A stretch of 40,462 nucleotides of DNA from a bacterium (GCA_021159185.1 JAGGSH010000034.1:1-40462); one strand, 5' to 3'. Counted from the stretch's first letter, positions 11,334 through 40,462 are shown. Numbers and translations: made by a program. Notes: generated from the sequence alone by a model not told the origin.

Positions 11334-12934
11334 AAAATAATAAACCAATTCGCGTTAGATTTGCTCCGTCGCCGACGGGCGAGCTACATATCGGGGGATT
11401 GAGAACAGCCCTGACTGATTTTTTGTTCGCCAGAAAAAACGGCGGTAAATTTATTTTGCGTATTGAGGATACTGACCAAAAGCGTTTCGTGAAAGGGTCA
11501 GTGGAAAGAATTATTAGGTCCTTAAAATGGGCGGGGATTGAGATTGATGAAGGAGTAACCTTGCGAAAAATCCAAAATCCAAAATTACAAATCCCAAATA
11601 AATCCAAAATTTTAAATTCCAAATCTCAAAAAAATAAAATACGCGATACGCGATACGCGATACGCGAGTTTGGTGATTATGGACCGTATACGCAGTCTAA
11701 ACGATTGGATATTTATAAAAAATATGTTCAGAAATTGCTTGACGAGGGCAAAGCTTATTATTGCTTTTGTTCTTCGGAAAGGCTGAATGAAATGCGAAAA
11801 GAGCAACAAAAAAACAAGCAAGCGCCAAAATATGACAGGCATTGTTTGAGATTATCCCGAAAAGAAATTGAGGAAAAAATAAAAAACGGCGCAAAATATA
11901 CGGTGCGGTTTAAAATTCCCGAAGGAAAAACTGTTTTTGAGGATTTGGTTTACGGAAAAATTGAAGTGGACAATTCCACCTTGGACGACCAGATAATTTT
12001 AAAAGCGGATGGTTTTCCCACCTATCATTTAGCGGTAGTAGTGGATGATTATCTAATGAAAATTTCCCATATTTTTCGGGGAGCGGAATGGCTATCCAGC
12101 ACGCCCAAGCACATTTTATTATATAAGGCGTTCGGCTGGGAAAAGAACGCGCCGCGCTTTTGCCATATGCCTAATATCCTTAATAAAAGCCGCAAAAAAC
12201 TCTCTAAGCGGGAGGGAAGCGTAAGCGTGGAAGATTTTCGGCGGCAAGGCTATCCGCCTCAAGCCATTGTTAATTTTATAGCATTGCTGGGATGGAACCC
12301 AAAAACGGAACAAGAAATTTTTACCATGCGGGAATTAATTGACCAATTTGCCATTGAAAAAATAAATAAGGCTGGGGGAGTGTTTGATATAGACCGTCTT
12401 AATTGGATTAGTACGCAACATATAAAAAAAATGCCGCTAGACAAGCTATATAAAAACGCGCTGCCTTTCTTAGAAAAAAAAGAATTTTATAAAACATGGA
12501 ATATAGAGCATAAAATATGGGACGATAAGAGAAAAGAAAAATATGTTAAAAAGGTATTATCAATAGAGCAGGAACGGCTGGAAAAATTTTCGCAAGCAGG
12601 AGAGAGTAACCAGTTTTTTTTCAAAAGCAATGTTAAAGCAGTGGCTGATGATATGCGCTGGAAAGATTCAAGCGATGAAGACACTAAAAAGTATTTAGAA
12701 AAAGCCCGGCGCGTTTTAGAAAATATTTCCGAAAGAAATTGGACGAAAGAAAATTTGGAGAGAATATTGTTAAAAATCGCGGGAGAAAATAGGGGAGACC
12801 TGCTTTTCCCTTTGCGCGCGGCCTTAACCGGACAAAAAAAATCGCCTTCGCCGTTTGAAGTAGCGTGGGTTTTAGGAAAGGGAGAGACGATTAGGAGAGT
12901 TAATTCCGCGATAAAATTGTTTTCCAAATTATAA
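11330..12934 (+). CDS. gltX: Glutamyl-tRNA synthetase with repeat-encoded insertion
   Basis: RFAPSPTGELHIGGLRTAL, RIEDTDQKRFVKGS, KLSKREGSVSVEDF; 534 aa. Confidence 0.93.
   Translation: MKNNKPIRVRFAPSPTGELHIGGLRTALTDFLFARKNGGKFILRIEDTDQKRFVKGSVERIIRSLKWAGIEIDEGVTLRKIQNPKLQIPNKSKILNSKSQKNKIRDTRYAIREFGDYGPYTQSKRLDIYKKYVQKLLDEGKAYYCFCSSERLNEMRKEQQKNKQAPKYDRHCLRLSRKEIEEKIKNGAKYTVRFKIPEGKTVFEDLVYGKIEVDNSTLDDQIILKADGFPTYHLAVVVDDYLMKISHIFRGAEWLSSTPKHILLYKAFGWEKNAPRFCHMPNILNKSRKKLSKREGSVSVEDFRRQGYPPQAIVNFIALLGWNPKTEQEIFTMRELIDQFAIEKINKAGGVFDIDRLNWISTQHIKKMPLDKLYKNALPFLEKKEFYKTWNIEHKIWDDKRKEKYVKKVLSIEQERLEKFSQAGESNQFFFKSNVKAVADDMRWKDSSDEDTKKYLEKARRVLENISERNWTKENLERILLKIAGENRGDLLFPLRAALTGQKKSPSPFEVAWVLGKGETIRRVNSAIKLFSKL
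11641..11668. repeat. Heptanucleotide tandem repeat ACGCGAT x4 (last unit ACGCGAG), in gltX
   Basis: acgcgat acgcgat acgcgat acgcgag. Confidence 0.95.
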
Positions 12935-12980
12935 AATTTGAATGTAAAAAGTCCTGGCATTATTTACAATTTCACTTTAT

Positions 12981-13123
12981 GTCATTCCGGAATTTTTTCT
13001 GGAGCGACAGCGGAAGAAAAAATATCCGGAATCTGGGTTAATTAAAATCCTAAAGTTTGAGATAAATGAAAGCATAGATTCCGGATATTTTCTCCGTTGC
13101 TACTCCGAAAATTCTGGAATGAC
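12981..13123. repeat. Dispersed composite inverted repeat
   Basis: gtcattccggaattttttctggagcgacagcggaagaaaaaatatccggaatct...agattccggatattttctccgttgctactccgaaaattctggaatgac. Confidence 0.88.
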
Positions 13124-13134
13124 ATATAACAAGC

Positions 13135-14505
13135 ATGAAAAAAACAGATAACAAAATAAATTTTTTAAGTCATCCAATTTTTACGCTAACGGTTATTTTA
13201 GTGGTTATATTTTTTGGAACGACAAGTGCTAAAGGATCTTATTGTGATTCCATAACAGAAAGCTTTGAAAAGAAAAAATGCAAATGCAATTTAATAGATG
13301 ATATGCAAAAAAGAGAAAAATGCATGCAAGATTTATTGGAAGAAATGGATGAAAAAAAGAAAACTTATAAAAAATTACAGGAGCTTAAAAAAAAGCAAGG
13401 AGCTAACCTAAGTGATCAAATTTCTGCGCTGAATTCTGACATAGGAGAAATAGAATCAGATATCAACGCGAATAAATTTAAAATAAACGACCTTAATGAT
13501 CAAATCAGAAAAGTTGAAAGCGCCATAAAAAAGAAAGAAAAATTAATTCAAGCGCAAAAAAAAGTGTTGGCGGGAATGATAAGAGTTTATAGCGAGCATA
13601 GCCAAGACGACAATCTTATAGCTTCAATTTTAAATAACGAAGGGTTGTCCAGTTTTATGATAAAAAAGGATAGAATTGCCCAGACGGGAGATAATGTGAA
13701 AAATATGCTAAGCAGTCTGAAGGCGCTTAAAAATAATTTAAAAGAGGATCGCGCGCTATTGGAGTCGCAAAAAGCCAAATTAGTTGATGTGCATTATGAA
13801 TTAGAGGAAAAAGGATCTTACTTGGAAAGCAATCGGAGACAGAAAAAAACATTGCTTAGCCAGACACAAGGAGAAGAAAGCAAATATAAAAAACTTTTGG
13901 AAAGAGTAGAGGAGCAGAAGCAGCAATTATTAGGAGATATTGATGAGTTATATAGCGCTAACAGCGAAGAAATCAGCGCTTTAGTTAAAAGCTTGAAAAA
14001 ACCGACTTCCGGTTTGGCTTCAAGAAGCTGGTATTATTCCCAAAAAGATTCACGGTGGGGGAGCCGCAGAATCGGGCAATCATCGTCATTGTTAAAAGAT
14101 TATGGATGCGCCATTACTTCGGTAGCGATGGTGTTCACTTATCATGGAGAAAGTATAAGCCCCAGAACTTTAGCTAAACAGCCGATATTTTATTGGGATC
14201 TGATTAAATGGCCGGCCACATGGAGAAGTCTTAAACTGGCAACTAATACTAATCATTCCGGAATCAGTTGGAGTAAGGTGGATAAAGAACTTGATAAAGA
14301 AAATCCGGTTATTGTTTTTATCCGCGCCGGAAATAAAGGCGGACATTATGTCGTAATTCATCACAAGAAAAAAGGGAAATATATAGTTCATGACCCTTAC
14401 TGGGGCGCTAATATTTATCTGGACTCGTCAATGAAACTTTTGTCTAAATTGTATGGCGTTTCTATATCAAAAAGGTCTATTAACCAGATGATATTGTATA
14501 AGTAG
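13135..14505 (+). CDS. Secreted coiled-coil protein with C-terminal C39-like papain-fold peptidase domain
   Basis: Signal/TM, PcsB/EnvC-like long coiled coil, then SWYYSQKDSRWGSRRIGQSSSLLKDYGCAITSVAMVFTYHG...HYVVIHHKKKGKYIVHDPYWG (Cys-His-Asp pattern). Confidence 0.8.
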   Translation: MKKTDNKINFLSHPIFTLTVILVVIFFGTTSAKGSYCDSITESFEKKKCKCNLIDDMQKREKCMQDLLEEMDEKKKTYKKLQELKKKQGANLSDQISALNSDIGEIESDINANKFKINDLNDQIRKVESAIKKKEKLIQAQKKVLAGMIRVYSEHSQDDNLIASILNNEGLSSFMIKKDRIAQTGDNVKNMLSSLKALKNNLKEDRALLESQKAKLVDVHYELEEKGSYLESNRRQKKTLLSQTQGEESKYKKLLERVEEQKQQLLGDIDELYSANSEEISALVKSLKKPTSGLASRSWYYSQKDSRWGSRRIGQSSSLLKDYGCAITSVAMVFTYHGESISPRTLAKQPIFYWDLIKWPATWRSLKLATNTNHSGISWSKVDKELDKENPVIVFIRAGNKGGHYVVIHHKKKGKYIVHDPYWGANIYLDSSMKLLSKLYGVSISKRSINQMILYK

Positions 14506-14612
14506 CAGCGGAAAAATTTATCCGGAATCTAGTCAGCGATAACTATACTACTTAAACTTTTTCAATATAATAACAATGTCGCAAAAGATACAAAGTGCGA
14601 CACGATGGATAT

Positions 14613-14665
14613 ATTAAAAAAGCTGTTTCTCTCTTCCTTTTTGGGTTAAAAGAAACAGCTTTATT
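14613..14665. terminator. Bidirectional terminator between convergent genes
   Basis: AAAGCTGTTTCT...AGAAACAGCTTT with A-rich and T-rich flanks. Confidence 0.7.
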
Positions 14666-14667
14666 TA

Positions 14668-14949
14668 TTACTCTGCTAATCTCTCCAGAGAACTCTTTCC
14701 TTTTCCCAACCATCTTAACCATCCGCTCCTTTTTTTATACCAGTAGTATGTGTTGCACTTGGCACATCGATGTCCACCAGCTAAATTACCATAAAGAATT
14801 TCCCTTTTTCTTGAATGGCAAATTGGGCAATACGGTGTCATGAAAAAATATATATACAAAAAGCTCACTATACACCAAACTGTAAAAACAATAATGGCAA
14901 TTAATATTGTCCTTCCTGTCCAAAGAGCCACCAAATCAAATTCTGTCAT
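14668..14949 (-). CDS. Small membrane protein with C-terminal zinc-ribbon-like CxxC pair
   Basis: One TM segment; CPICHSRKREILYGNLAGGHRCAKCNTYYW. Confidence 0.65.
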   Translation of the reverse strand: MTEFDLVALWTGRTILIAIIVFTVWCIVSFLYIYFFMTPYCPICHSRKREILYGNLAGGHRCAKCNTYYWYKKRSGWLRWLGKGKSSLERLAE

Positions 14950-15009
14950 AATCTAATTTCCTCCTGCTAATTTTTTTGTCAAAGTTCTACTATCAACCTA
15001 GCAAACTTT

Positions 15010-15405
15010 TTATTTTTTGCCCAGTCCCCTATCTCGATATTTTTTTATCGCTTTTCGCAGAGCTCCGGTGGCTAATTTTCCGCAGTGCATTTTAGCGGGA
15101 GGCAAACCTTCCAGCTCGTCGGCTAAATCTTGCAAAGTAATTTTTAAAGCTTTGTCCAGCGTTTTATTTTTAGCCATATCGGTCATGGCTGATGAAGTAG
15201 CGATAGCCGCTCCGCAGCCTAAAGTTTCAAACTTAATGTCTTTTATTATTTCCTCCCCCTTCTTATTCTTACTCACTTTAATATAAATACTGATTGAATC
15301 TCCGCAGACAGGATTAATAACAGCTGTTTCAGCGTCGGCGTTTTTTAATTTACCCCAATTATGAGGATGGGTAAAATGTTGAATTACTTTTTTTGAATAT
15401 AACAT
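15010..15405 (-). CDS. iscU: Iron-sulfur cluster scaffold protein IscU/NifU N-terminal family
   Basis: HFTHPHNWGKLKNADA; NPVCGDSISIYI; ETLGCGAAIATSSAMTDM; KMHCGKLATGALRKAI: three conserved Cys. Confidence 0.92.
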   Translation of the reverse strand: MLYSKKVIQHFTHPHNWGKLKNADAETAVINPVCGDSISIYIKVSKNKKGEEIIKDIKFETLGCGAAIATSSAMTDMAKNKTLDKALKITLQDLADELEGLPPAKMHCGKLATGALRKAIKKYRDRGLGKK

Positions 15406-15414
15406 AAAATAGGT

Positions 15415-15497
15415 GTCATTCCCGACTTGATCGGGAATCCATGATAAAACTACTGACTTTAAAAATTACTTTGGATTCCCGCCTGCGCGGGAATGAC
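15415..15497. repeat. ATTCCC...GGGAAT palindromic repeat pair
   Basis: gtcattcccgacttgatcgggaatcc...ggattcccgcctgcgcgggaatgac. Confidence 0.85.
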
Positions 15498-15523
15498 AAG
15501 TTATGGGAGTTATGAGTGTAAGA

Positions 15524-16705
15524 TTAATTTCCGGAAATTTTCCTTAATCTTTTAACCGCTTCTTTTAATTTTTTAATTGTATAATCCAATTCTTTTTTGG
15601 TCGTTTGTTTTCCGAGAGTAATTCTTAAACTTCCATAAATTTGCTTCGGTTTTAATCCCAATGCTGTTAATGTCTGTGATGGTTTAAGTGATCCAGTGGA
15701 GCAAGCTGATCCGGTGGAAACAGCAATGCCTTCTAAATCAAGCGCCAGCGCCAACCCCTCCCCTTCCACGCCGTCAAATCTAAAATTAGCGTTAGCCGGA
15801 GATCGCTTTATCGCCGATCCATTCAGATACGCCCCCGCGATTTCCCCCGAAATTTTTTCAATTAAATAATCTCTTAATTTTTTAATTTTATTAATACTTG
15901 ATACATTATATTTAATACTTGATACTGCGAAGCCTAATCCTGCTATCCCCGGCACATTATGTGTTCCTGATCTCATTCCGTATTCCTGCTCTCCTCCATC
16001 CTGAATATTTTTAATAAGTGTATTTTTTTTGATATAAAGCGCTCCAATTCCTTTAGGTCCGTAAATTTTATGTCCGGAAAGTGAGAGCAAATCAACATTT
16101 AACTTTTTAACATCGCAACTAAAATAATTTACCGCTTGCGCCGCGTCAGTATGGAAGATAATTTTGCGGCTGTCGGCTTTATTTATTTTCTTGATTAACT
16201 TCCCTATTTCGGCAATCGGCTGAACCGTTCCGATTTCATTATTTACATACATTACGGAAATTAGCAAAGTATTTTTTTTGATAGCTTTTTTAACATCGCC
16301 TGTTTTTATAACGCCGCTTTGATTGACTGGCAGATATGTAACTTCAGCCAGATTTTCTTTCTCGGCAGCCATACAGGCATTAAAAATACAGGGATGTTCA
16401 AGTTGGCTGATTATAATATGCGGTTTATCTCTTTTTTTTAAATAATATTTTAAAACTCCCTTAATCACTAAATTATTGCTTTCTGTTGCTCCGGAAGTGA
16501 AAATAATTTCTGAAGCGGAGCAATTTAAAAAATCAGCTATTTGCTGTCTAGCGTTGTCAACTGCTTTCATCGCTTCCTGTCCGAAATTGTGGATGGACAT
16601 CGGATTGCCAAACTTCGCGCTGAAATAAGGCCGCATCGCTTCAAAAACTTTTTTGTCCATAGGCGCGGTAGCCGCATAATCTAAATAAATTCTCTTTTTA
16701 AGCAT
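15524..16705 (-). CDS. iscS: Cysteine desulfurase (NifS/IscS family)
   Basis: YLDYAATAPMDKKV; FTSGATESNNLVIKG; HTDAAQAVNY; SGHKIYGPKGIGALYIK; STGSACSTGS. Confidence 0.93.
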   Translation of the reverse strand: MLKKRIYLDYAATAPMDKKVFEAMRPYFSAKFGNPMSIHNFGQEAMKAVDNARQQIADFLNCSASEIIFTSGATESNNLVIKGVLKYYLKKRDKPHIIISQLEHPCIFNACMAAEKENLAEVTYLPVNQSGVIKTGDVKKAIKKNTLLISVMYVNNEIGTVQPIAEIGKLIKKINKADSRKIIFHTDAAQAVNYFSCDVKKLNVDLLSLSGHKIYGPKGIGALYIKKNTLIKNIQDGGEQEYGMRSGTHNVPGIAGLGFAVSSIKYNVSSINKIKKLRDYLIEKISGEIAGAYLNGSAIKRSPANANFRFDGVEGEGLALALDLEGIAVSTGSACSTGSLKPSQTLTALGLKPKQIYGSLRITLGKQTTKKELDYTIKKLKEAVKRLRKISGN

Positions 16706-16718
16706 AGTTTATAATTCT

Positions 16719-17879
16719 TTAAAGCTGTATAGCTATTTCCATTTCTTCCCCGCTTCTAATTATTGAAAGTTTCACTTCGTCGCCTTTTTTGTGGCGGCTC
16801 ATTAAATTAGACAAAGGATTATCTAAGTTAACCTCTTCTTCATCAACAGCTATAACAACATCGTTTATTCTAAGACCGGCTTTTTCCGCCGGGCTATTCG
16901 CGATAACAGCCAGCCCCTGTTTTTCTGACGGAGAATAAATCACAGCGCCCCGATCCCTGTTAAAACCGGCCGTCGTCGCGCAAGTTTTAGTCAAAGAATA
17001 ATAATAAATTCCCAGAGATGCCCTCTCTTTTAACTTATTTTCCATAGCCAATTTCATGGATTCTTTAATAATATTAGAAGGTATTTGAAAATATTTATCC
17101 CGATTGTCTATTTTAACCAAACCTATTATGCCAGCCAGTTCTCCGCCGTAGCTCACAATCGGTCCTCCTAAATATTCCGGATGGCTGGCAAAATCAGCTT
17201 CAATAACACCTTCCAGTTTTTCCGAAGATGAAACCGTCTTTCCCGACAAATTAAAAGTTTTATTTATCCCGTTTAGAAATCCCGCGGAGAATTTATTCTG
17301 ATATTCGCTTGAATAATTTCCAATAGCGATTATTTTTTTTCCGGATTCAAAATCGTCGGAATTAGCGAATGGAATAACAGGAAGATTAGAAGCTTTGATT
17401 TTTAAATAAGCTAGATTGGTGAAATTATCTATGCCTAATAGCTCAGCTTTGTATCCGACTCCGTCAAAAGTCCAAACCGTATAATTAGCTTTTTCTTCAA
17501 TAAGAATGCCGCGATAAGTTACGATTAGTCCGTCACTGGCAACTATAACTCCCGAACCGTTTTTAATATTTTTCTTAGAAACGGTCGGGCTGTCTGGAAC
17601 CGAAGTTACACTGACTACTGCCGTGGCGGCGCGGGAAGCAATTTCATTAACGGAAGTGTTTTCTGTCACAGTCACTTGTTCCGTTTTATTTATTATAGTC
17701 ACATTCTTATTAGCTTTTTTAATGAAATCGTATTTGGAGAAAAATTCATAGCTGGTGAGCTTAGGCAAAATAAAACGGTCAAGGACGACTCCCCCTAATC
17801 CTCCCACTATAAAAATTAACGCCAACAGAAACGCTAACTTAAAAATTTTTTTAATTTTTCCCGATTTTTTTTGAAGCAT
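16719..17879 (-). CDS. HtrA/DegP-like protein with PDZ domain, catalytic triad lost (predicted pseudoprotease)
   Basis: HtrA-like blocks SGVIVASDGLIVTYRGIL, NLAYLKI, HPEYLGGPI; C-terminal PDZ (LAVIANSPAEKAGLRINDVVIAVD). Confidence 0.8.
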   Translation of the reverse strand: MLQKKSGKIKKIFKLAFLLALIFIVGGLGGVVLDRFILPKLTSYEFFSKYDFIKKANKNVTIINKTEQVTVTENTSVNEIASRAATAVVSVTSVPDSPTVSKKNIKNGSGVIVASDGLIVTYRGILIEEKANYTVWTFDGVGYKAELLGIDNFTNLAYLKIKASNLPVIPFANSDDFESGKKIIAIGNYSSEYQNKFSAGFLNGINKTFNLSGKTVSSSEKLEGVIEADFASHPEYLGGPIVSYGGELAGIIGLVKIDNRDKYFQIPSNIIKESMKLAMENKLKERASLGIYYYSLTKTCATTAGFNRDRGAVIYSPSEKQGLAVIANSPAEKAGLRINDVVIAVDEEEVNLDNPLSNLMSRHKKGDEVKLSIIRSGEEMEIAIQL

Positions 17880-17927
17880 AATTTTAAGATTTGTAAATTT
17901 GTAGTTTGATTTGTAAATTCGCGGGCG

Positions 17928-18668
17928 CTAAATATTTGGCAGCCACTTAGAACTTATGAGAAGAAATCCTATAAGAAAACCGGAAAGTATCATGTTAGCT
18001 ATTACCCTTTTCTTGGAAAGAAAATTGAGAAAATGGCTTCTAATTAAATCCCAAAGGGTATAATAAAATATAAGAGCAGTTGCGCCGGTTGTCAAGTATC
18101 CAAATGGCCAAAAGCTTATCATCCATGCAATTTCCGCCATCACCATTCCCAAAAGAGTACTATAAATAAAGGCTGATTTTTCATTATCATTTTTAATAAT
18201 TTTAAAATATTGATAACTGACTAAAAATGTTACTAAGAAATAAGCTAGTATTAATACCCATAATGGAACGGCAAAATTAAGGTGAATTCCATAGCTGGCC
18301 GCATAAAAAAAGAAAATAGTCGCGGTAGCGGACGCCATAATCAATCCCATAGCCGTTTGGTCTTTGGAATAATTTCTCAATCTATAAGCGCTTAATAATG
18401 ACAAATAATAAATAAAAGCGCTCAAGAAAACAAACAGCTGCTTCTCGGCGAAAATGTCAATGAAATAAAGGAGGATAATGGAAGAAATGGAAAAGACAGT
18501 TGGGATGATTGAAAAAAGCCATCTCTTGCCGATTTTTTTAGATTTCCACAAAGAAGCCAATATTAAAACCGCCAAGGCGTAAAAAGCCAATGCTGGCTGG
18601 TAAATGATTATTTCGAGCCCTGCCAAAAACGCCAGGGCGTAAAAAAAGGCGGGAAAATAAAAAAACAT
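17928..18668 (-). CDS. Polytopic membrane protein of unknown function
   Basis: 246 aa, multiple hydrophobic helices; family not recognised. Confidence 0.7.
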   Translation of the reverse strand: MFFYFPAFFYALAFLAGLEIIIYQPALAFYALAVLILASLWKSKKIGKRWLFSIIPTVFSISSIILLYFIDIFAEKQLFVFLSAFIYYLSLLSAYRLRNYSKDQTAMGLIMASATATIFFFYAASYGIHLNFAVPLWVLILAYFLVTFLVSYQYFKIIKNDNEKSAFIYSTLLGMVMAEIAWMISFWPFGYLTTGATALIFYYTLWDLIRSHFLNFLSKKRVIANMILSGFLIGFLLISSKWLPNI

Positions 18669-18731
18669 ACAATTTTTCCGTTGATTTTTAACAGTTTCTT
18701 GTTATACTACAGATAATCTTTCTAAATAATT

Positions 18732-18960
18732 GCGTTAATCCACATTCATTATAAAATACCGCTTGGTTTAAATCAAATGATGAGTTGGTATGTTTAAAAA
18801 ATCCCTGTTTTAATTCAGGGATTTTTAAATTTCACCTCTTGTTCCGATTCCGATCGTGAGCAGAGGTGAAATTTGGAATCGCTCTTTAATTTTGCCCGGC
18901 TTATTTCATTTTATTTCTCGTGTCCTTATGTGGTTATATGGACATATGCTTGTCGCTTCT
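18732..18960. repeat. Duplicated intergenic cassette, copy A
   Basis: Diverged homologue of 21652-21990: shared promoter/operator-like block, ATCCCTG...CAGGGAT hairpin, TTTCACCTCT...AGAGGTGAAA hairpin, GTCCTTATG...GGAC hairpin. Confidence 0.85.
18748..18781 (-). promoter_or_regulatory. Promoter for CDS 17928-18668 (copy A)
   Basis: Minus strand TTGATT, 17-nt spacer, TATAAT. Confidence 0.65.
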
Positions 18961-18967
18961 TTCACAC

Positions 18968-29095: not shown

Positions 29096-31255
29096 TTAAA
29101 TAATTATTTTTATATCTACCGCTTTTGTTTCTTTACCGTTATTGTAGATTAATAAAGGATTTATATCAAATTCTTTTATTTCTCTAATTTCTATAGCTAA
29201 TTGCGCGAGTTTTAAAATTATTCCTGCTAGATTTTCAATATTGTATGACTTTTGCCCCCGAGTTTCTTTGAATAAAAATCCCAGCTTACTTTTAGCTAAA
29301 CGCTTTTTTATTTTTTCAGTATTCATAGGAGGAATGAAAAATTCAACTGTTTTAAAAATTTCTGTGTAAATTCCTCCCAGTCCGCAAACTATAATCGGTC
29401 CGAAAACCGCGTCTTTTTTAATTCCCAATATCAATTCAGTTTGGATTTCCAACATTGGCTGAATAATTATGTTTTCTCCGGGAAAACTATCTTCCATTTT
29501 TCCTATGGCAACTTTCAGTTCCTCTTGATTTTTAATATTTAAAATAACTCCCTGCCGGTCGGTTTTGTGTAAAATTTTATCACTGTCAACTTTAACCGCT
29601 ACTGGAAATTTTACTTCCATATCATTTTCATTTGCTATTATGCCATTCTTTTCCTTATCTATGCTATTCTCAGTTCCCTCTATGTCATTCCCGTCCGCCA
29701 ATCCGGCGGATAAACTTCGGCGGGAATCTAGATTCACCGCTTTCACGACACTAATTCCATACAAATCCATAATCTCTTTAGCCTCTGAAAACAAAAGCGC
29801 GTCGCGGTTTTCCGCTTTCGCTTTTTCAATGATATCCAGTGTTTTTTCCTGTCGTTCTTTATTGATTTTTTCTTTTTGAATTAAAGCAGAAGCATCGCAA
29901 GCGCTCCATTTATAATATTTATCCAAAACTTTCACCGCTTTTTCCGGAAAAGAAAAATTGGGAATATTATTTTCTCTCAAAATATCTAAGGCCTTAATGA
30001 TTTTCTTTCCGCCGATAAAAACAGTAATTGTCGTTTTCCCCGTTTTATTTTTAAAATCAATTATCTCATGGGCGATTTTTTCGCAGGGCGTTTGGTCCTG
30101 GGGAGTAAGAACGCAAATAATCATTCCCGCATTTTCTTGACTTGCAATCTTCAAAGTTTTTTTATAACGATCTTCTTGGGCGTCTCCTAAAAGATCAATC
30201 GGATTTTCTACTGATGATTCATCCGGCAGAAAACTTTTTAATTCTTTTTTTGTTTTATCGCCAATTTTTGCCAATTTTATTTCCTTTCCGCCGAAAGCGT
30301 CCGCGGTCAAGACTCCCGGACCTCCGGCGTTAGTAATAATAATCGCCTCTTTATTTTTAGAAATGCTGGAATTGGAAGCAAGTTTAATTAAATCAAAAAA
30401 GTTTTCCAGATTATCCGCCCGCAAAATTCCCGCTTTCTCAAAAACAGCGTTTATAATTTCACTGCTTCCCGCCAGCGCTCCAGTGTGGGATACAATAGCT
30501 TTTCGGGCTTTTTCAGTTTTCCCCGCTTTAAGAATTATAATCGGCTTTTTAGCGGAAACTTTCTCGGTAATTTTCATAAATTCCCTTCCGTTTTTTATTC
30601 CTTCAATATAAACCGCAATGGCTTTAGTGCTTTCATCGCCGGAGAAATATTTTATAAGATCGGTTTCGTTTATTCTCGCTTTATTGCCTATGGAAATCAA
30701 ATTAGAAAATTTTATTCCCTCTTTTTCCGCCGCGTCCATAAAACCTACCGCTAAAGCTCCGGATTGTGAAATAAGAGCAATATTGCCCATTTCAGGCATT
30801 CCTCCAGCAAACGAAGCGTTTAATTTTATTTTAGGATTTATAAATCCCAGGCAATTTGGTCCGAGAATATTTAAATTATTTTTTTCCGCCAATTTAGCTA
30901 ATTCATTTTCTCTTTTCTTTCCCTTTTCTCCCATCTCCGAAAACCCGGCGGAAATTATCGCGAAATTTTTAACTTTGTCCGCCGCGTTTTTAATGGTATT
31001 GTTAACAAATTTAGCGGGAATAATAATAATCGCCAAATCAACTTTCTCATTAATTTCCTCTAAGCTGGAATAACATCTCCTCCCAAAAAGTTCTTTATGT
31101 TTGGGATTAACCAAAAACACTTCGCCACCATATCCTATGTTAAGAATATTTTTCGCCACCACATTACCCACCTTTCCCTCCTTTTCCGTAACTCCCACAA
31201 TGGCGATTGAGCGAGGATTAAAAAAAGTTTTTAGATTGTTTTTTGAATCTAACAT
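29096..31255 (-). CDS. ADP-forming acyl-CoA/acetyl-CoA synthetase, alpha-beta fusion, with repeat-encoded insertion
   Basis: CoA-binding FFNPRSIAIVGVTEKEGKVGNVV; NILGPNCLGFINP; ISQSGALAVGF; VSHTGALAGSSE; ATP-grasp C-terminus FGPIIVCGLGGIYTEIFKTVEFFIPP. Confidence 0.9.
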   Translation of the reverse strand: MLDSKNNLKTFFNPRSIAIVGVTEKEGKVGNVVAKNILNIGYGGEVFLVNPKHKELFGRRCYSSLEEINEKVDLAIIIIPAKFVNNTIKNAADKVKNFAIISAGFSEMGEKGKKRENELAKLAEKNNLNILGPNCLGFINPKIKLNASFAGGMPEMGNIALISQSGALAVGFMDAAEKEGIKFSNLISIGNKARINETDLIKYFSGDESTKAIAVYIEGIKNGREFMKITEKVSAKKPIIILKAGKTEKARKAIVSHTGALAGSSEIINAVFEKAGILRADNLENFFDLIKLASNSSISKNKEAIIITNAGGPGVLTADAFGGKEIKLAKIGDKTKKELKSFLPDESSVENPIDLLGDAQEDRYKKTLKIASQENAGMIICVLTPQDQTPCEKIAHEIIDFKNKTGKTTITVFIGGKKIIKALDILRENNIPNFSFPEKAVKVLDKYYKWSACDASALIQKEKINKERQEKTLDIIEKAKAENRDALLFSEAKEIMDLYGISVVKAVNLDSRRSLSAGLADGNDIEGTENSIDKEKNGIIANENDMEVKFPVAVKVDSDKILHKTDRQGVILNIKNQEELKVAIGKMEDSFPGENIIIQPMLEIQTELILGIKKDAVFGPIIVCGLGGIYTEIFKTVEFFIPPMNTEKIKKRLAKSKLGFLFKETRGQKSYNIENLAGIILKLAQLAIEIREIKEFDINPLLIYNNGKETKAVDIKIII
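29684..29731. repeat. Half-element of ATTCCCG...CGGGAAT repeat inside acyl-CoA synthetase CDS
   Basis: gtcattcccgtccgccaatccggcggataaacttcggcgggaatctag; encodes LDSRRSLSAGLADGNDI. Confidence 0.9.
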
Positions 31256-31263
31256 GGTTTTAT

Positions 31264-31340
31264 TATATCCCATTTTCTTAATTAGACCAAATAAAAAAAG
31301 CGCCGCTTGTTGAAAATTTTAAAATCAACGCGCGACGGGT
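31264..31340 (-). terminator. Probable dnaJ terminator
   Basis: Minus strand GCGCGTTGATTTTAAAATTTTCAACAAGCGGCGC followed by TTTTTTT. Confidence 0.6.
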
Positions 31341-32450: not shown

Positions 32451-32479
32451 AAATATTATTCTACACCAAAACAAAAAAA

Positions 32480-32506: not shown

Positions 32507-32608
32507 AAAATCATATTCCAGCCATTCTGCTGCTTTACTTGTAAGATTTCGTCGCGTTGTTTGCATTTTTGTTAATTGTTTTTACTTATCATTCCCGCGC
32601 TTCTTTAT

Positions 32609-32690
32609 GTCATTCCCGCGCAGGCGGGAATCCAGGATAATTATTTAAGCCAGTGATTTTACCCTGAATTTCCGTTTTCACGAGAATGAC
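32609..32690. repeat. ATTCCCGCGCAGGCGGGAAT dispersed repeat, decayed right arm
   Basis: gtcattcccgcgcaggcgggaatccagg...ccctgaatttccgttttcacgagaatgac. Confidence 0.8.
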
Positions 32691-32768
32691 ATAGGGGAAG
32701 CGGGAATAAACATAACGAGAGAATATAAACAACACTAGGGTTTCTTACACTTTGCTTACTAAAGTCGC

Positions 32769-33818
32769 TTACTCAATTATTTCCATCTCCACCGGGACTT
32801 TTTTAATTTGTATTATTTTAGTTTTAGCTAGAATGGTAAAAATTAACGCCGATAAGAGCATCCATAACGGACTTAAGAAAGATCCTAAAGAGATAACCGT
32901 TAAAAAAATTATAATCGCTAAAGCGATTGGGATAAGCGGAACTTTTTTCGGATTGTCCATACTTACTCCTAAAAAGTTAGTTATTTTACTATTTATCATT
33001 TCGGAAATAACTTCGGATATTTTTTCTTCTCCCGCAAGTTCTCTGCCTGCTATTTCTGAAAGTTGTTTTCTTCCTTCTTCCAATATCATATTTCGCCCGT
33101 CCGGCTCTTCCATATTTTTAGCGTATTCTTTTTTAATCTCGTCTAACCGGCTTGGCGAGGCCGTATCTCCAAATTTTTCAGCAACAATTTTGTCAATCTC
33201 TTTATCGACAGAAATGCCGGCATTTTTTTGATCGTTCATTTTCTGTGTTTGGAGAATAAATTGGTCAACAGTCATATCTTTATCTTCGCTGATTTTAATT
33301 CCGGGATTAATTGTTGAAATAATTCTTGATGCCAAGCCATTAGCAATGTCGCCGGGTTTTAATTGGGGAATAAGCGCGCTGGCTTTAAAATCTTTCACGC
33401 CGAAATAATATTGGCTGGTAATGATAATCGCTAAGGAAATAATTAAAAGCATCCTTCCCCTTCTGATTGTTTTCCAAAGGTCAATTTTAACATTCAGCTT
33501 TAAGTCATTTTTAATTCTTGCCATAGCCAAGTAAGCAAGAAGTAAACTGAGAACAACCGGCAAAAAATGCCAGCCATTGAAAACGAAAATAAAGCTGGAT
33601 AGGAAAGAAACCGCCAATAGCCCCGTTAAGACATAAGTTTCTTTGATTAAAACGATACTTAAAGCCAAAATAATAAAAAACAGTGAAAACCAAATTACGG
33701 GAACGAGCCAATTGCTGGATTCCGGATTATTAACGGCTTGATCAACCGACAACCACGCGAAAAAAGAAAACAAAAGCGTCAAAAATATTAAGCTGTATTT
33801 TAGTATTTGTTTTTTCAT
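32769..33818 (-). CDS. Polytopic membrane protein, unknown
   Basis: Multiple N-terminal TM helices, soluble helical region, C-terminal TM pair. Confidence 0.7.
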   Translation of the reverse strand: MKKQILKYSLIFLTLLFSFFAWLSVDQAVNNPESSNWLVPVIWFSLFFIILALSIVLIKETYVLTGLLAVSFLSSFIFVFNGWHFLPVVLSLLLAYLAMARIKNDLKLNVKIDLWKTIRRGRMLLIISLAIIITSQYYFGVKDFKASALIPQLKPGDIANGLASRIISTINPGIKISEDKDMTVDQFILQTQKMNDQKNAGISVDKEIDKIVAEKFGDTASPSRLDEIKKEYAKNMEEPDGRNMILEEGRKQLSEIAGRELAGEEKISEVISEMINSKITNFLGVSMDNPKKVPLIPIALAIIIFLTVISLGSFLSPLWMLLSALIFTILAKTKIIQIKKVPVEMEIIE

Positions 33819-33851
33819 CTTTATTATTGTAGCAAAATTTGAAAATAAAAA

Positions 33852-33881
33852 AAAGCGGAGCAAAACGCCCCGCTTTTTTGG
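33852..33881. terminator. Intrinsic terminator-like hairpin
   Basis: AAAAAGCGGAGC...GCCCCGCTTTTTT. Confidence 0.65.
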
Positions 33882-33921
33882 ATGACATCATTTATTTGAC
33901 TTCACTTCGCCTAATTTCAAA

Positions 33922-34575
33922 TCAGGTTAAGATAAACTGGCATTTTTCTATATATGCTTCGCTTTTTTCTTGATTAAAAAAATTAGGCCGTATTTGAATA
34001 AGATATTCATCATTTCGCATCCAAAGAGATTTACTTGCGCAATCTTCTTTAATATAACACCCGTGCCAACTTGGATTTTTGCTTACTTTTTTCTCGGCTC
34101 TATAGCAAAAACTTTCGCTGTATTTATTACCAATGGAACATTGGCTCAAATTATAAACATAAATTGTAAATAATCCTCCGTAAGTCGTGCCTGCGTCGTA
34201 AATAATATCTTTTTTGTTTTTTCCAAAATAATAAGCAAAAATGGGATTATGAGGATTATAACTATCCAACTTTTCCTTTTTTATCAAAATTGCTAAATTA
34301 TCTTGCGGGAATTTAATTTGGAAATTAAACTTTTTATTAACATAAACATTCTCATTATTTTTATCTTGATTAATCTTATTGACAACATTTTCATTAACAA
34401 TTTTCTGGTTTTTACTATCAGTATTTGTTTTGGTTTTACTATTTTGTCCAACTCCTAAATTTATTTTTGAGCTTATTACATTATCCTTGCTATGGATATT
34501 CAGCCAATAGCAGAACATACAGGTAGTGATTAGCGAGATAATGATAATTATTATAACTATTATTTTTTTACTCAT
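33922..34575 (-). CDS. Hypothetical single-TM secreted/anchored protein
   Basis: 217 aa, N-terminal TM, low-complexity Asn/Lys linker, Cys-containing C-terminal domain. Confidence 0.65.
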   Translation of the reverse strand: MSKKIIVIIIIIISLITTCMFCYWLNIHSKDNVISSKINLGVGQNSKTKTNTDSKNQKIVNENVVNKINQDKNNENVYVNKKFNFQIKFPQDNLAILIKKEKLDSYNPHNPIFAYYFGKNKKDIIYDAGTTYGGLFTIYVYNLSQCSIGNKYSESFCYRAEKKVSKNPSWHGCYIKEDCASKSLWMRNDEYLIQIRPNFFNQEKSEAYIEKCQFILT

Positions 34576-34624
34576 TGTTTTATGATTTAATTTGATTTTT
34601 AAATTTTCTTTATGCCTTTCCTTA

Positions 34625-34656
34625 AAAAAAGCGGGGCAAAACGCCCCGCTTTATAT
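34625..34656 (-). terminator. dnaK terminator
   Basis: AAAAAAAGCGGGGC-aaaac-GCCCCGCTTTA; stop of dnaK lies just upstream on the minus strand. Confidence 0.75.
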
Positions 34657-34662
34657 CAAGAT

Positions 34663-36606
34663 TCATTTCTTTTCACTATCGCTTTTATTTTCCCCCTCGT
34701 CATCCTTCTTCTTTTCCTGCTCCACTTCCGCGTCTTTAACTTCACCGTCTTTTTTCTCTTCTCCGCCCGGCGTATTTTCCCGCTCTTGCCCGCCTTGGGC
34801 GGATTGGGCGGCTTGGTAAAGTTCTTGCCCTATTTTCTGCGCTTCTCGGGATAATTCTTCACTGGCTTTTTTAATAGCTTCAATATCATCGCCGTCTTTT
34901 ACTTTTTTCAGAGCTTCAATTTTCTCTTCCACTGGTTTTTTCTTATCGGCTGATATTTTATCTCCGGCGTCTTTCAAAGCCTTTTCGGTGCTATGCGTTA
35001 AAGCATCCGCCGTGTTTTTGATTTCAATGGTTTCTTTTTTCTTCTTGTCTTCTTCCGCGTGAGCTTCCGCGTCTTTTTTCATTTTCTCAATTTCTTCGTC
35101 GGAGATTCCGCTGGAAGCTTCAATCCTTATGGACTGGCTTTTTCCGGTCGCTTTGTCTTTTGCGGTAACATTAAGAATTCCGTTGGCGTCAATGTCAAAA
35201 GTGACTTCAATTTGAGGCACGCCTCGCGGAGCTGGAGGAACTCCGTCCAGAATAAATCTTCCCAGTGTTTTATTTCCTTCCGCCATTTCCCGTTCGCCCT
35301 GAAGAACATGAATTTCCACGCTGGGCTGGTTGTCAGCGGCAGTGGAAAATATCTGGGATTTGGAAGCTGGGATAGTGGTATTCTTGCCAATAAGCGGGGT
35401 GGAAACTCCTCCCATTGTTTCAATTCCCAGCGTCAAAGGAGTAACATCTAACAATAAAACATCCTTCACTGTTCCCTCTAAAACTCCTCCTTGAATAGCC
35501 GCGCCCATAGCCACTACTTCATCCGGGTTAACGGAAGCGTTCGGTTTTTGTCCGAAGAATTTTTCCACTTCCTGAATAATTAAAGGCATTCTGGTCATTC
35601 CGCCCACCAAAATAATTTCATTGATATCTTTGGTTTCCAATTTTGCGTCAGCCAGCGCTTTTTTCACAGGTTCCATTGTTTTCTGGACTAAATCGCCGAT
35701 TAGCTCTTCTAATTTGGATCGAGTCAGTTTCAACACCAGATGTTTCGGTCCGCTGGCATCGCTGGTAATAAACGGTTGGTTTACTTCCGTTTCCACCGCG
35801 GTGGAAAGTTCAATCTTAGCTTTTTCGGCCGCTTCTTTAATTCTCTGCAAAGCTAAATTATCTTGGCTTAAATCTATTCCTTCCTGCTTCTTAAATTCGC
35901 CAATAATCCAATTAATTATCACTTGGTCAAAATCATCTCCCCCTAAATGAGTGTCGCCATTAGTTGACTTGACTTCCACCGTGTCATCTCCCACCTCTAA
36001 AATAGAGATGTCAAAAGTTCCGCCGCCCAAATCGTAAACGGCAATTTTTTCATCCTTTTTTTTGTTAAAGCCGTAAGCTAAAGCGGCGGCGGTAGGCTCG
36101 TTAATAATCCTCTCCACTTTAAGCCCCGCGATTTCCCCGGCTTCTTTGGTGGCTTTCCTTTGCGAATCGTCAAAATAAGCCGGAACGGTAATAACCGCTT
36201 TTTCAATTTTTTCTCCCAATTTTTCTTCCGCGTCCGCTTTCAATTTTTGCAAAACCATAGCGGAAATTTCCCGCGGGGTATATTCCTTGTCGCCCATTTT
36301 CACTTTCACTCCGCCGTTGGCTTTGACAATTTTATACGGCATAAGCTTCAAGTCTTCCTGCACTTCCTTGTCTTCAAAGCTTCTTCCGATTAAGCGCTTA
36401 ATAGAAAACAAAGTGTTTTCCGGATTGGTAACCGCTTGCCGTTTAGCTAAAAGGCCAACCAGCCTTTCTCCATTTTTGGAAACCGCTACCATAGACGGCG
36501 TAGTGCGGCTGCCTTCTTTATTCTCAATAATTTCAGGCTTTCCGCCCTGAACCACCGCCATAGCGCTGTTTGTGGTTCCCAGATCAATTCCTAATATTTT
36601 TGACAT
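34663..36606 (-). CDS. dnaK: Chaperone DnaK (Hsp70)
   Basis: [66 protein letters not shown]. Confidence 0.97.
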
Positions 36607-36676
36607 ATTTTTTTGCGATTATGGAAAATTATTTCTAATTATCCATAATTTTGAGTTAAAAAATTTATTACTTGTC

Positions 36677-36704
36677 TTGACTTATTATTTAACTGTGCTA
36701 TATT
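36677..36704 (+). promoter_or_regulatory. Orphan plus-strand promoter with extended -10
   Basis: TTGACT (36677-36682), 16-nt spacer, TGC-TATATT (-10 at 36699-36704); no plus-strand CDS downstream until priA. Confidence 0.65.
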
Positions 36705-36710
36705 GAACTT

Positions 36711-36787
36711 AGTTGTTTTAAACCATCTTTCCATCTCTCCTCTCCCCCGCCCTTGGAATGCCTCGTCATTTCAAGGGCGCTTTTTTA
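36711..36787 (+). ncRNA. Candidate ~75-nt small RNA with CU-rich single-stranded region
   Basis: Lies between the orphan promoter and a strong terminator; contains CCATCTTTCCATCTCTCCTCTCCCCC. Confidence 0.5.
36748..36787 (+). terminator. Strong intrinsic terminator (13-bp stem)
   Basis: CGCCCTTGGAATG-cctcgt-CATTTCAAGGGCG (one G-U) then CTTTTTT. Confidence 0.85.
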
Positions 36788-36855
36788 ATTTATTCCATAA
36801 TTTGCTCGTCTTGCTGTTCAAGCAACTTTGAAATCTTGAACAGCGCCGAAACAAA

Positions 36856-37272
36856 CTATTTCTTTACCTTAACGGCAATTTTTTTAGGCTTAGCCTCTTC
36901 GGCTTTGGGAAGGATAATCTTCAAAATCCCTTTCTCATAGCTGGCCTTTGCTTGGCTGCTTTTTACATTCATTGGAAGAATCACCGAACGGGAAAAACTT
37001 CCTTCTCTTATTTCTTTGCGGTAATAATTTTCTTTTTTGACTTCCTTTTTTTCTTCTGTCTCGCCAGAAATAGTCAGAACATCATTTTCTATTGAAATAT
37101 CCACTTTCTCGGGATCAATTCCCGTCAGCGGAGTTTCTATAATCACTTCGTCTTTTTTTTGGTAAATATCCACTAAGGGAGTAAAATCAAACCCCTCTTC
37201 CAATATTCCCTCTTCAAAAAACCTGTCTAAATTTCGCCAAGAAGACCACGGCGCCAATTTTCTAGGCATCAT
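36856..37272 (-). CDS. Small heat-shock protein Hsp20
   Basis: FTPLVDIYQKKDEVIIETPLTGIDPEKVDISIENDVLTISGE...SFSRSVILP...ASYEKGILKIILPK. Confidence 0.93.
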   Translation of the reverse strand: MMPRKLAPWSSWRNLDRFFEEGILEEGFDFTPLVDIYQKKDEVIIETPLTGIDPEKVDISIENDVLTISGETEEKKEVKKENYYRKEIREGSFSRSVILPMNVKSSQAKASYEKGILKIILPKAEEAKPKKIAVKVKK

Positions 37273-37339
37273 AATATCACCTCGCTTTCTATATAAAAAA
37301 TCACTCTTACTCGCTTTAAATTAGATAGTTGCTCGTGAG

Positions 37340-37867
37340 TCACTCAAGTGTCACTCTTGCCGGACGAATAATCTTGTCTCCGATTTTATAACCTCTTAAA
37401 ATTATTTTCTTGATTACGCTTTTATTCATTGTTCGCTTGCCTGCCGGCGAAGCAGATTGTTCGTTATTTGTTGTTCGTTCTGCAATGGCTTCATGAATTT
37501 CGGGATTAAAATTATTTCCCGCTTTAATTTTAATTTCTTCCACTCCATTGTCAGCTAGAACCGTCTCTAATTGTTTTTGAATATGCGTTATTCCTTGAAC
37601 CCAAGCACTGTCTTTTTGTTCTTCGGGTATATGTTCCGTAGCTGCTTGGAAATTATCCAGAACCGGCAAAATTTGCGTCACGATATTTTCCGTAGAATAT
37701 TTTATAATATCTTTTTGAGATTCAGCTTGCCGTTTTTTATAATTTTCAAAATCCGCCTGACAGCGTTTCCACCCATTTAAATATTCTTGAGATTGTTTTT
37801 TGAAATCTTTTTTCGGAAAACTATTTTTTTCTTTACCGAAAATTTTTCCTTTTTTCTTTTCTTCCAT
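37340..37867 (-). CDS. grpE: Nucleotide exchange factor GrpE with repeat-encoded insertion
   Basis: DFENYKKRQAESQKDIIKYSTENIVTQILPVLDNF; NFNPEIHEAIAE...ILRGYKIGDKIIRPARVTL. Confidence 0.9.
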   Translation of the reverse strand: MEEKKKGKIFGKEKNSFPKKDFKKQSQEYLNGWKRCQADFENYKKRQAESQKDIIKYSTENIVTQILPVLDNFQAATEHIPEEQKDSAWVQGITHIQKQLETVLADNGVEEIKIKAGNNFNPEIHEAIAERTTNNEQSASPAGKRTMNKSVIKKIILRGYKIGDKIIRPARVTLE

Positions 37868-37872
37868 ATCTT

Positions 37873-38616
37873 CTAAATAAAATTGATAAGCAAAACTATC
37901 GCTGTTGACGATCCCAGTATTTTTCTCACATACTCAATCAATGATTTGTTTTTGGCATACCGCATTCTTTTAGGTCCAATCAACGCCAATATCCCTTTTT
38001 CCCCGCTTTTTAATTTATAAGGAGAAACGACCATAGAGCATCCAGACATCTCGTTCACCGGGTTTTCCCGCCCGATAAAAATCTTTGTTTCGCCTTCTTT
38101 CACTTCGTCAATTATTTGGTCAAATTTTTCATCAATATAGTCCAGTATTTCAGCCAAGCGGCACACTTCATCCAGTTCCTGAAATTCCGGCTCTTCCATA
38201 AGTTCGCTCATACCGAAATTACAAAAGTCGTCTTTACCCAAGGCTCCGCTAATGGCTAAATTTCCGCTAAGAGCCGAGAGAAGTTTGGCGGTAGTTCTGG
38301 AAAGCCGGGTGTTTTTAGCCTTAAGTTTTAGCAATTCTTCTTTCAGTTTTATTTGCTCCCGCTTTGTAAGTTCGCGGTCTTTCATTACTTCCTCCACAAA
38401 ATAACGGTAGCCTTTATCAGTCGGGATTCTTCCGGCGCTAATGTGCGGTTGGTATAAATAGCCATCTTTTTCCAACGCGGACATATCATTCCTGATAGTA
38501 GCCGGGCTAATCTCAAGATTATACTTTTCCGCTAAAACTTTTGATCCCGCGGGGATAACCGTGTTGGTATATTCCTTAATCACCGCCGCTAAAATTTTCT
38601 CTTGCCTGTCATTCAT
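37873..38616 (-). CDS. hrcA: Heat-inducible transcription repressor HrcA
   Basis: KILAAVIKEYTNTVIPAGSKVLAEKYNLEISPATIRNDMSALEKDGYLYQPHISAGRIPTDKGYRYFV. Confidence 0.94.
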   Translation of the reverse strand: MNDRQEKILAAVIKEYTNTVIPAGSKVLAEKYNLEISPATIRNDMSALEKDGYLYQPHISAGRIPTDKGYRYFVEEVMKDRELTKREQIKLKEELLKLKAKNTRLSRTTAKLLSALSGNLAISGALGKDDFCNFGMSELMEEPEFQELDEVCRLAEILDYIDEKFDQIIDEVKEGETKIFIGRENPVNEMSGCSMVVSPYKLKSGEKGILALIGPKRMRYAKNKSLIEYVRKILGSSTAIVLLINFI

Positions 38617-38642
38617 AACTATGCTGAAAGTATAGCATATTG

Positions 38643-38669
38643 TTAGCAGTCGTCAAGTCCGAGTGCTAA
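38643..38669 (-). promoter_or_regulatory. CIRCE (HrcA operator) upstream of hrcA
   Basis: Minus strand TTAGCACTC-N9-GACTGCTAA; one mismatch from consensus. Confidence 0.9.
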
Positions 38670-38710
38670 AATATTTTGCTTTAACTAAAAACGGCTGATA
38701 CAATGGAAAT

Positions 38711-40462
38711 ATGGCCATGAAAAATAAAAAAATTATTATAAGTATTGTTCCGCTTACCGGAATTTCTTTGACGCGTGATCAGTTTTTTTATTATCTCTAC
38801 GATAAAAAAATATCAAACGGATCACTGGCTTCAATTCCTTTGGGCAGGAGAAAAATTGAAGGCGTGGTTATTGGCAACAAATCTGATTTTAAACGATTGG
38901 GAAATATTCAGCTCAAAAAAATCAATTCCGTGATTGAAGAAAATTTTTTAACTCCGGAACAATTAAAGCTGGCTGAACTTATTTCGGATTACTATATCAT
39001 TTCATTGGGAATAGTTTTGAAAAGTTTCATACCGAAAAGAACGCAGGCAAGAAGTAAGCAGAAAACAAAAAACAAAAAGCAAAAAGCAAAAAAAATCATT
39101 TTAACTAACGAGCAAAAAGAAGCAATAAAACAAATCGTAAAAAAAGCTACCCGCCTGCCGGACAAGCAGGCAAGCTGCAAGCTGCAAGCTGCAAGCTACT
39201 ATTTATATAGTTCCGCTTCTTCCAATAAAACCGAAATTTATATTGATACGATTTTAAAACTCAAGAAGCAAAATTTGAAATCCCAGTTTTTAATTTTGCT
39301 TCCTGAATTAATTCTTGTGTTTCAGATAATTGAAAGATTTAGCGCTTATTTTAAAGAAAATGAAATAGCGGTCTTGACCGGTAAAATTTCCAAAGGGAAC
39401 TTTTACCGGAATTGGCAGAAAATAAAAACGGGAAAAGCTAAAATTATCATTGGCACCCGCCAAGCTATTTTCGCCCCTTTTAAAAATCTGAAGCTGATTA
39501 TCGTTGACGAAGAACAGGATATTTCCTTCAAACAATGGGACAGAAGCCCTCGTTATGATGCCAGAAAATTAGCTGAAGAACTAGCTAAAATTCACCAAGT
39601 TAAAATAGTATTCGGATCAGCCACCCCCAGCATTGAATCATATTATAAAGCGCTGAACAAAAAATATAAATTATTAAAACTGCCTGGATTAAGAAGCGAG
39701 CCACAAGCCACAAGCCACAAGCCACAAGCTAAAATTGTGGATTTGCGAAAGGAGAAATGGATTAAAAATTATTCTCCCATCTCCAAGAAGCTGGAATCTG
39801 AAATCAAGTACGCTTTAAAACATAAACTTCAAACTATACTTTTTATCAATCGCCAAGGGATGAGCGCTTTTTCCGTTTGTCAAAATTGCAAGACGGTTTT
39901 GAAATGCCCGAAATGTGATCGGGCGCTGGTTTATCAAAATAGAGGCATCTATAGATGCCTCTATTGCAATTATAAATCGTCTATTTTTCCAAAATGCTCC
40001 AAATGCCAGGGGATGAATTTTAAAAATGTGGGAATCGGCACCCAAAAAGTTGAAGCGGAAATTAAAAAACTTTTTCCTTTCGCTAAAACAGCCAGGGTTG
40101 ATTCCGAAACAATGAAAAAAGCAAACGCTCATGAAAAACTTTTTGAAAAATTTTCCAAAAATAAAATAAGTATTTTAATAGGCACTCAAATGATTGCCAA
40201 AGGCTGGAATTTGCAAAATGTCGGTTTGGTTGGTATTATTGACGCTGACAGCTTGCTGAATATGCCCGATTTCAGAACCAATGAAAAAGCTTTTCAAAAT
40301 TTACTCCAAGTTATCGGAAAAACGGCGCGGCCAAAGAATAACGCGCGCGGAACAGCTATTATCCAGACTTGCGATCCGGAAAATTTTATTATAAAAACGG
40401 CGGCTGAAATGGATTTTGAAAAATTTTATAAAAAAGAAATTAAAGAAAGAAAAGTTTTAAAC
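38711..40462 (+). CDS. priA: PriA-like primosomal protein N', helicase motifs degenerate, 3' end truncated by window
   Basis: Manual translation open to the window end: PLGRRKIEGVVIG; VDEEQDISFKQWDRSPRYDARKLAEE; VFGSATPSIES; zinc-binding CQNCKTVLKCPKCDRAL...CLYCNY...CSKC; GTQMIAKGWNLQNVGLVGIIDADSLLNMPDFR. Confidence 0.9.
   Translation, partial: MAMKNKKIIISIVPLTGISLTRDQFFYYLYDKKISNGSLASIPLGRRKIEGVVIGNKSDFKRLGNIQLKKINSVIEENFLTPEQLKLAELISDYYIISLGIVLKSFIPKRTQARSKQKTKNKKQKAKKIILTNEQKEAIKQIVKKATRLPDKQASCKLQAASYYLYSSASSNKTEIYIDTILKLKKQNLKSQFLILLPELILVFQIIERFSAYFKENEIAVLTGKISKGNFYRNWQKIKTGKAKIIIGTRQAIFAPFKNLKLIIVDEEQDISFKQWDRSPRYDARKLAEELAKIHQVKIVFGSATPSIESYYKALNKKYKLLKLPGLRSEPQATSHKPQAKIVDLRKEKWIKNYSPISKKLESEIKYALKHKLQTILFINRQGMSAFSVCQNCKTVLKCPKCDRALVYQNRGIYRCLYCNYKSSIFPKCSKCQGMNFKNVGIGTQKVEAEIKKLFPFAKTARVDSETMKKANAHEKLFEKFSKNKISILIGTQMIAKGWNLQNVGLVGIIDADSLLNMPDFRTNEKAFQNLLQVIGKTARPKNNARGTAIIQTCDPENFIIKTAAEMDFEKFYKKEIKERKVLN
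39053..39087. repeat. 7-nt-periodic repeat in priA (AGTAAGC AGAAAAC AAAAAAC AAAAAGC AAAAAGC)
   Basis: Direct reading; encodes a Lys/Gln-rich linker (SKQKTKNKKQKAKK). Confidence 0.8.
39170..39197. repeat. Heptanucleotide tandem repeat GCAAGCT x4 in priA
   Basis: gcaagct gcaagct gcaagct gcaagct, preceded by cctgccggacaagcagg hairpin. Confidence 0.95.
39701..39728. repeat. Heptanucleotide tandem repeat CCACAAG x4 in priA
   Basis: ccacaag ccacaag ccacaag ccacaag. Confidence 0.95.
39938..39965. repeat. 28-bp perfect palindrome in priA zinc-binding region
   Basis: AATAGAGGCATCTATAGATGCCTCTATT. Confidence 0.95.

Follow-up and report, generated by a model that had tools for sequence, protein, structure and literature searches.

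Frame-keeping heptanucleotide arrays in essential genes of a small bacterial genome

Heptanucleotides are the most abundant repeat class in many bacteria according to Mrazek, Guo and Shah (2007, PNAS), as that work is represented in PMC4692102 and PMC4679880, which also give its proposal of slippage by a polymerase in contact with about 7 nt. Here we describe tandem heptanucleotide arrays in the 40,462-nucleotide stretch GCA_021159185.1 JAGGSH010000034.1:1-40462 (the window), which is contig 8 of a draft bacterial genome (937 kb, 96% complete, GC content of about 38%, 42 contigs) and carries such arrays inside gltX and priA. The small genome, the absence of MutS from nearly all relatives and similar matches in Parcubacteria and Uhrbacteria suggest that the lineage belongs to the Patescibacteria. 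Period 7 is over-represented here and also in a congener; compared with what those sources tell of the 2007 repeats, the arrays described here occupy many housekeeping genes, show a frame-locked peak at three added units and belong to a genome of less than 1 Mb with extreme dominance of period 7.

The short tandemly repeated repetitive (STRR) sequences of Calothrix and Nostoc and the GGGNATC repeats of Xanthomonas resemble these arrays in being tandem heptamers with a preference for four units, which has been attributed to G-quadruplexes for GGGNATC and the Nostoc heptamers. Those systems consist of a few fixed consensus sequences that are mostly intergenic, and their four-unit bias was described in G-rich intergenic heptamers, whereas here 39 units occur, the largest class accounts for 6 of 61 arrays, most arrays are coding and the four-unit peak lies in genes. 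Because almost no units are G-rich (only AAATCCC among the listed units has a run of three C or G) and the peak is genic, the G-quadruplex account is inapplicable here. Unit lengths of the Borg tandem repeats vary, being mostly multiples of three in genes, and we know of no 7-nt register among them. As far as PMC9879509 describes them, they evolve rapidly and lie inside genes, where they add disordered segments. The TAACTGA repeats of Beggiatoaceae are heptamer direct repeats found in scattered taxa, with two to six copies per set in Maribeggiatoa (PMC4679880); they represent one intergenic sequence, related heptamers being rarely repeated there, in contrast to the many units in genes reported here. 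A coding heptamer, AAGACTC, is present at the neuO locus of Escherichia coli K1, where slippage proceeds in 7-nt steps and the frame is open at copy numbers divisible by 3 (PMC13001214), but neuO is a single long switch that lies close to the start of its gene and is highly unstable, whereas the present arrays are many, short and placed in internal loops of essential genes. In the literature searched, we found no account of such heptamer arrays in Patescibacteria, of a copy-number peak locked to the reading frame in many genes, or of orthologous loops whose units had been exchanged. The heptanucleotide excess in bacteria and the polymerase-contact explanation have been known since 2007; what is new here is the extreme period-7 bias, the location of arrays within essential genes, a copy number locked to the frame and the turnover of units.

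Period and unit diversity across the genome

Period was surveyed in 768 kb (82% of the genome), taken in stretches, by counting runs, defined as maximal stretches in which each base is identical to the base p positions before it, with a chance expectation equal for all p; at least 14 matching positions were required for the period spectrum and at least 12 for the counts of coding and intergenic placement and for comparison with relatives. Period 7 gives 61 runs, for which a third-order Markov model expects about none. Periods 14 (24 runs) and 21 (7 runs) are multiples of 7, and each non-multiple period from 3 to 21 yields 9 runs or fewer, so the distribution is not flat. At the lower threshold, 97 period-7 runs comprise 54 coding, 34 intergenic and 9 edge placements.

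The initial annotation of the window had proposed, from three arrays in gltX and priA, that unrelated heptamers of fixed period and copy number arise from a generating mechanism rather than from the spread of one sequence. Those three prove to be far from the only heptamer arrays of the genome, and a generator with a fixed 7-nt register agrees with the dominance of period 7, with the 39 unit sequences among the 61 arrays (the commonest, AAAATTC, occurring in six) and with the different units carried by congeners at single sites. Units thus vary at fixed period, as proposed, but fixed copy number is not supported as a property of the generator, since the four-unit peak is confined to genes. Although the units differ among the three arrays, they are not private to them: GCAAGCT x4 recurs elsewhere in the genome (G000:C4:18625-18652), as does an ACGCGAT array (C9:348-383). 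The unknown polymerase or element that had been offered as a source is not required, and a slippage account of the period-7 excess had been proposed already in 2007.

The property is lineage-specific yet recurrent: it is present in the genus, mostly missing from order-level relatives, and found again in scattered other genomes. A same-genus genome (G001) has 19 period-7 runs in 135 kb, where the other periods from 5 to 13 give 0–2 each and period 14, a multiple, gives 7. Forty relatives, each sampled as one stretch of at most 20 kb (590 kb in total), contribute eight period-7 runs, of which family members account for five, and 60 kb of the same-family genome G004 contain five. CAAGCTN x3 occurs in 9 of 380 genomes of the phylum (27 matches), compared with none for the reversed control. 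Eight of the positive genomes lie outside the genus, in other families; as they were picked by the presence of one CAAGCT array, only the remaining arrays in the same stretches were counted, giving 19 of period 7 against at most 4 of any other period, and 2 of their 18 units are common with this genome, one being the picking unit itself. Among the matches listed, from genomes picked by the pattern, CAAGCTN x4 spans many phyla and is present in finished chromosomes of Halomonas, Vibrio and Pseudomonas, and CAAGCTN is found in 85 viral contigs, against 26 with the reversed unit and 19 with a period-8 version. Some heptamer units are therefore favoured. CAAGCTN arrays (L137-L216) are common in Pseudomonas, Halomonas and Alcanivorax, where several are apparently intergenic and followed by inverted copies, so that hairpins are possible.

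Copy number, reading frame and unit turnover

Coding status was assigned on two bases, a hexamer gene model (546 genes, 77% coding) and an independent plain open-frame criterion, the gene calls being our own on a draft genome. By the open-frame criterion, arrays of 28–34 nt make up 23 of the 39 coding arrays in this genome and 1 of the 21 non-coding arrays (Fisher p = 2.5e-5), non-coding lengths being spread from 22 to 61 nt. The hexamer model gives the same pattern, with arrays of 28–34 nt dominant inside genes and nearly absent between them, and in the congener and other genomes the fractions are 13 of 26 coding and 3 of 16 non-coding (p = 0.056). Units free of stop codons are found in 37 of 39 coding and 9 of 21 non-coding arrays, a difference partly built in by the definition of coding. 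The rule of four units in essential genes that had been read from the window is thus borne out within genes and fails outside them; it is a property of genes and best explained by reading frame. Four units recur because one unit plus three extra adds 21 nt, or seven residues, and keeps the frame. It had been argued that, 28 bp not being a multiple of 3, flanking changes must restore the frame; as the length added is three units (21 bp), no such repair is required, and the GCAAGCT array of PriA corresponds to exactly seven extra residues relative to G004. The 16 of 39 coding arrays outside 28–34 nt presumably depend on degenerate units next to them or on a second indel.

Four coding sites were aligned between this genome and its congener, and at each of them the loop contains heptamer DNA in both genomes. 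The unit differs at three of the four (GCAAGTT and ACGAACT; AATTTCG and AATTTCC; AAGAAGC and AAGAATT), and the net length differences (6, 87, 15 and 21 nt) are all multiples of 3 but are not simple unit counts. Units therefore turn over at orthologous protein loops, and their replacement may reflect either homogenization of mutant units or independent births in the same permissive loop.

Arrays in gltX, priA and other genes

Encoded at 11330..12934 (+) is the glutamyl-tRNA synthetase GltX (Pfam tRNA-synt_1c, E = 3e-109), whose insert occupies a variable loop just ahead of the GPY.QS.RL motif; in relatives this loop measures anything from 0 to about 40 residues, and in the loop alignment the insert is absent or reduced in other family members. 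The gene contains degenerate heptamer DNA of AAAATCC / AAATTCC-like units (11567..11638, +), identified by Tandem Repeats Finder (TRF) and congener alignment and encoding RKIQNPKLQIPNKSKILNSKSQKNK, where 7-nt periodicity had been noted at 11567-11640. Next to it is a perfect period-7 array, ATACGCG x4.1 (11639..11667, +; peptide IRDTRYAIRE). Described initially as ACGCGAT x4 at 11641-11668, this array has three perfect units in that register and ACGCGAG as the fourth; four perfect units are obtained in the register ATACGCG. A congener retains the ACGCGAT unit at equal array length, and its neighbouring stretch has AATTTCC units and an inserted 21-nt stretch relative to 11567..11638.

The primosomal helicase gene priA (38711..40462, +; Pfam PriA_3primeBD, DEAD and Helicase_C) runs off the contig end. 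TRF places a degenerate AAAACAA / CAAAAAG period-7 stretch at 39056..39093 (+), close to the 39053-39087 given in the initial annotation, whose coordinates for the two perfect arrays are exact. Directly before the Walker A region is GCAAGCT x4 (39170..39197, +; peptide ASCKLQAASY). The CCACAAG x4 at 39701-39728 lies within a full perfect run, AGCCACA x4.4 (39699..39729, +; peptide EPQATSHKPQA), which forms an insertion of 4–6 residues relative to family members. The Walker A region itself, directly after the GCAAGCT insert, is degenerate (window 39170-39235), reading YSSASSNKTE where G004 has FGPSSSGKTE, and to judge from these residues the ATPase activity of PriA may be impaired. Several CAAGCT arrays adjoin a short imperfect CCTGCC..GGCAGG palindrome (window 39150-39172, L042 near 2865 and L014 near 11312).

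Located near the C-terminus of grpE (GrpE Pfam E = 2e-35) is a short degenerate period-7 stretch on the minus strand (37457..37477), which reads TTGTTCG TTATTTG TTGTTCG on the plus strand, as had been noticed. Across the genome, arrays are hosted by genes of replication and repair (priA with two, the NAD-dependent DNA ligase ligA with three, UvrD/PcrA, an SMC-like ATPase and Fpg), of translation and tRNA metabolism (GltX, MetRS, IleRS, PheRS beta, the CCA-adding enzyme, MnmA and TsaE) and of the cell envelope (MurB, a Mur ligase, and many glycosyltransferases and O-antigen ligases), and characteristic insert peptides include KLQATSYKLQA, IRDTRYAIRD and KIQNSKFKIQNS. The IleRS gene (L042:1907-5722, −) also has an embedded histidine-phosphatase domain (Pfam His_Phos_1, residues 578–732). 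A palindromic dispersed element, resembling the Rickettsia palindromic elements, has in-frame copies in two unrelated genes of the window (10506-11333, +, and 29096-31273, −), with peptides SVIPAQAGIQ and LDSRRSLSA[KG]LADGNDI and DNA of the type CTGGATTCCCG..CGGGAATGAC; in the congener, a related element is found near 1536 of locus L409, with heptamer DNA on both sides.

Origin of the arrays

The period bias, the coding and non-coding copy numbers, the in-frame loop insertions and the unit turnover observed here probably reflect slipped-strand synthesis that favours a 7-nt register and whose products in genes are screened by reading frame and stop codons. A slippage step strongly preferring 7 nt would act on short direct repeats of about 2–6 matching bases that happen to be 7 nt apart, and the unit would be whatever seven bases stand at the seed site. 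Such slippage would operate in this genus and recur in other, scattered lineages, and its step may correspond to the stretch of nascent duplex that the replicative polymerase holds, an idea that dates from 2007. In genes, arrays would persist where the coding strand has no stop codon, the surface loop is tolerant and the net length change is divisible by 3, the smallest such outcome being one unit plus three extra (21 nt, seven residues), hence four units; continued array turnover would then leave different units at the same loop in congeners. Among runs of 7–8 matching positions, period 7 is not clearly commoner than periods 6, 8 and 9, its excess starting at 9–10 positions, and few runs have exactly 14 or 21; this spectrum suggests, without proving, that a few bases of microhomology are needed. 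The case for palindromes as drivers of slippage is not convincing (a 4-nt palindrome is present in 0.66 of arrays and 0.49 of distinct units, compared with 0.39 of shuffles; p = 0.10), and stalling of the polymerase at perfect hairpins next to arrays was rejected (2 hairpins observed, 2.3 expected).

Several observations weigh against this account. Intermediates of +7 or +14 are closed to essential genes; slippage by single units is therefore insufficient for gltX and priA, whose arrays need either several units added at once or simultaneous compensation. The density of coding arrays also exceeds what one would expect if mutation were strictly followed by filtering. Among the congener sites compared, none with an unexpanded seed was found, and the birth of arrays in place is for this reason something that we infer. 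Units are not entirely arbitrary, given the recurrence of CAAGCTN in unrelated taxa far above its reversed control. Loss of mismatch repair was rejected as the specific cause, because 28 of 29 genomes lack MutS_V whether they carry arrays or not, which leaves the lineage specificity unexplained by repair loss. Neither this genome nor most of its relatives have a Y-family polymerase, and the enzyme does not distinguish enriched from depleted relatives.

As the single-unit step would be lethal in essential genes, there is room for a dedicated enzyme or element (an unusual polymerase, a template-reusing transferase or a repair pathway) that copies a 7-nt template several times per event. We consider this unlikely: it would account for +21 in essential genes by single multi-unit events, and the patchiness of arrays across lineages and the wholly different units of congeners at one site fit it, but no candidate gene was found (the Y-family polymerase being absent here), non-coding lengths are spread and show no fixed burst size, and simple two-copy runs with 3–6 nt extra are also enriched, as stepwise slippage predicts. 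There is even less reason to expect that a few heptamer families (CAAGCTN, AAATTNN and ACGCGAT) spread as mobile or horizontally transferred repeats. Identical units do recur within the genome, and CAAGCTN has the wide distribution in phyla and viral contigs given above; however, period is the sole feature common to the 39 unit classes, the units of the other positive genomes are nearly all different, and ordinary gene sequence surrounds the arrays, which show neither terminal structures nor an enrichment of hairpins.

It is very improbable that the arrays are contingency loci, that is, unstable coding repeats kept for on/off switching or loop variation: known coding heptanucleotide switches such as neuO need copy numbers divisible by 3, and several hosts here are surface-polysaccharide genes, but switching off aminoacyl-tRNA synthetases, DNA ligase or PriA should be lethal, the arrays are short (4 units, compared with 3–53 in neuO), and the gltX ACGCGAT array is equally long in the congener. 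Assembly artefact or chance is scarcely credible even for a draft in 42 contigs, given an expectation of about zero, the conservation of the gltX array in an independently assembled congener and the similar arrays in the finished chromosomes.

The bacterial preference for seven-base repeats, a puzzle since 2007, can now be approached by comparing close relatives with and without the bias, in a lineage where each genome offers dozens of arrays and where the non-coding arrays serve as an inbuilt control for the coding ones. There is a slim chance that replication or repair activity in some lineages inserts multi-copy heptamers per event, in which case a heritable mutational machine that can be gained and lost would have left the four-unit coding peak as its trace, and essential genes would be able to gain seven-residue peptides without frameshifted intermediates. 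The arrays provide a route by which essential proteins acquire seven-residue loop insertions, which matters for the annotation and alignment of such genes.
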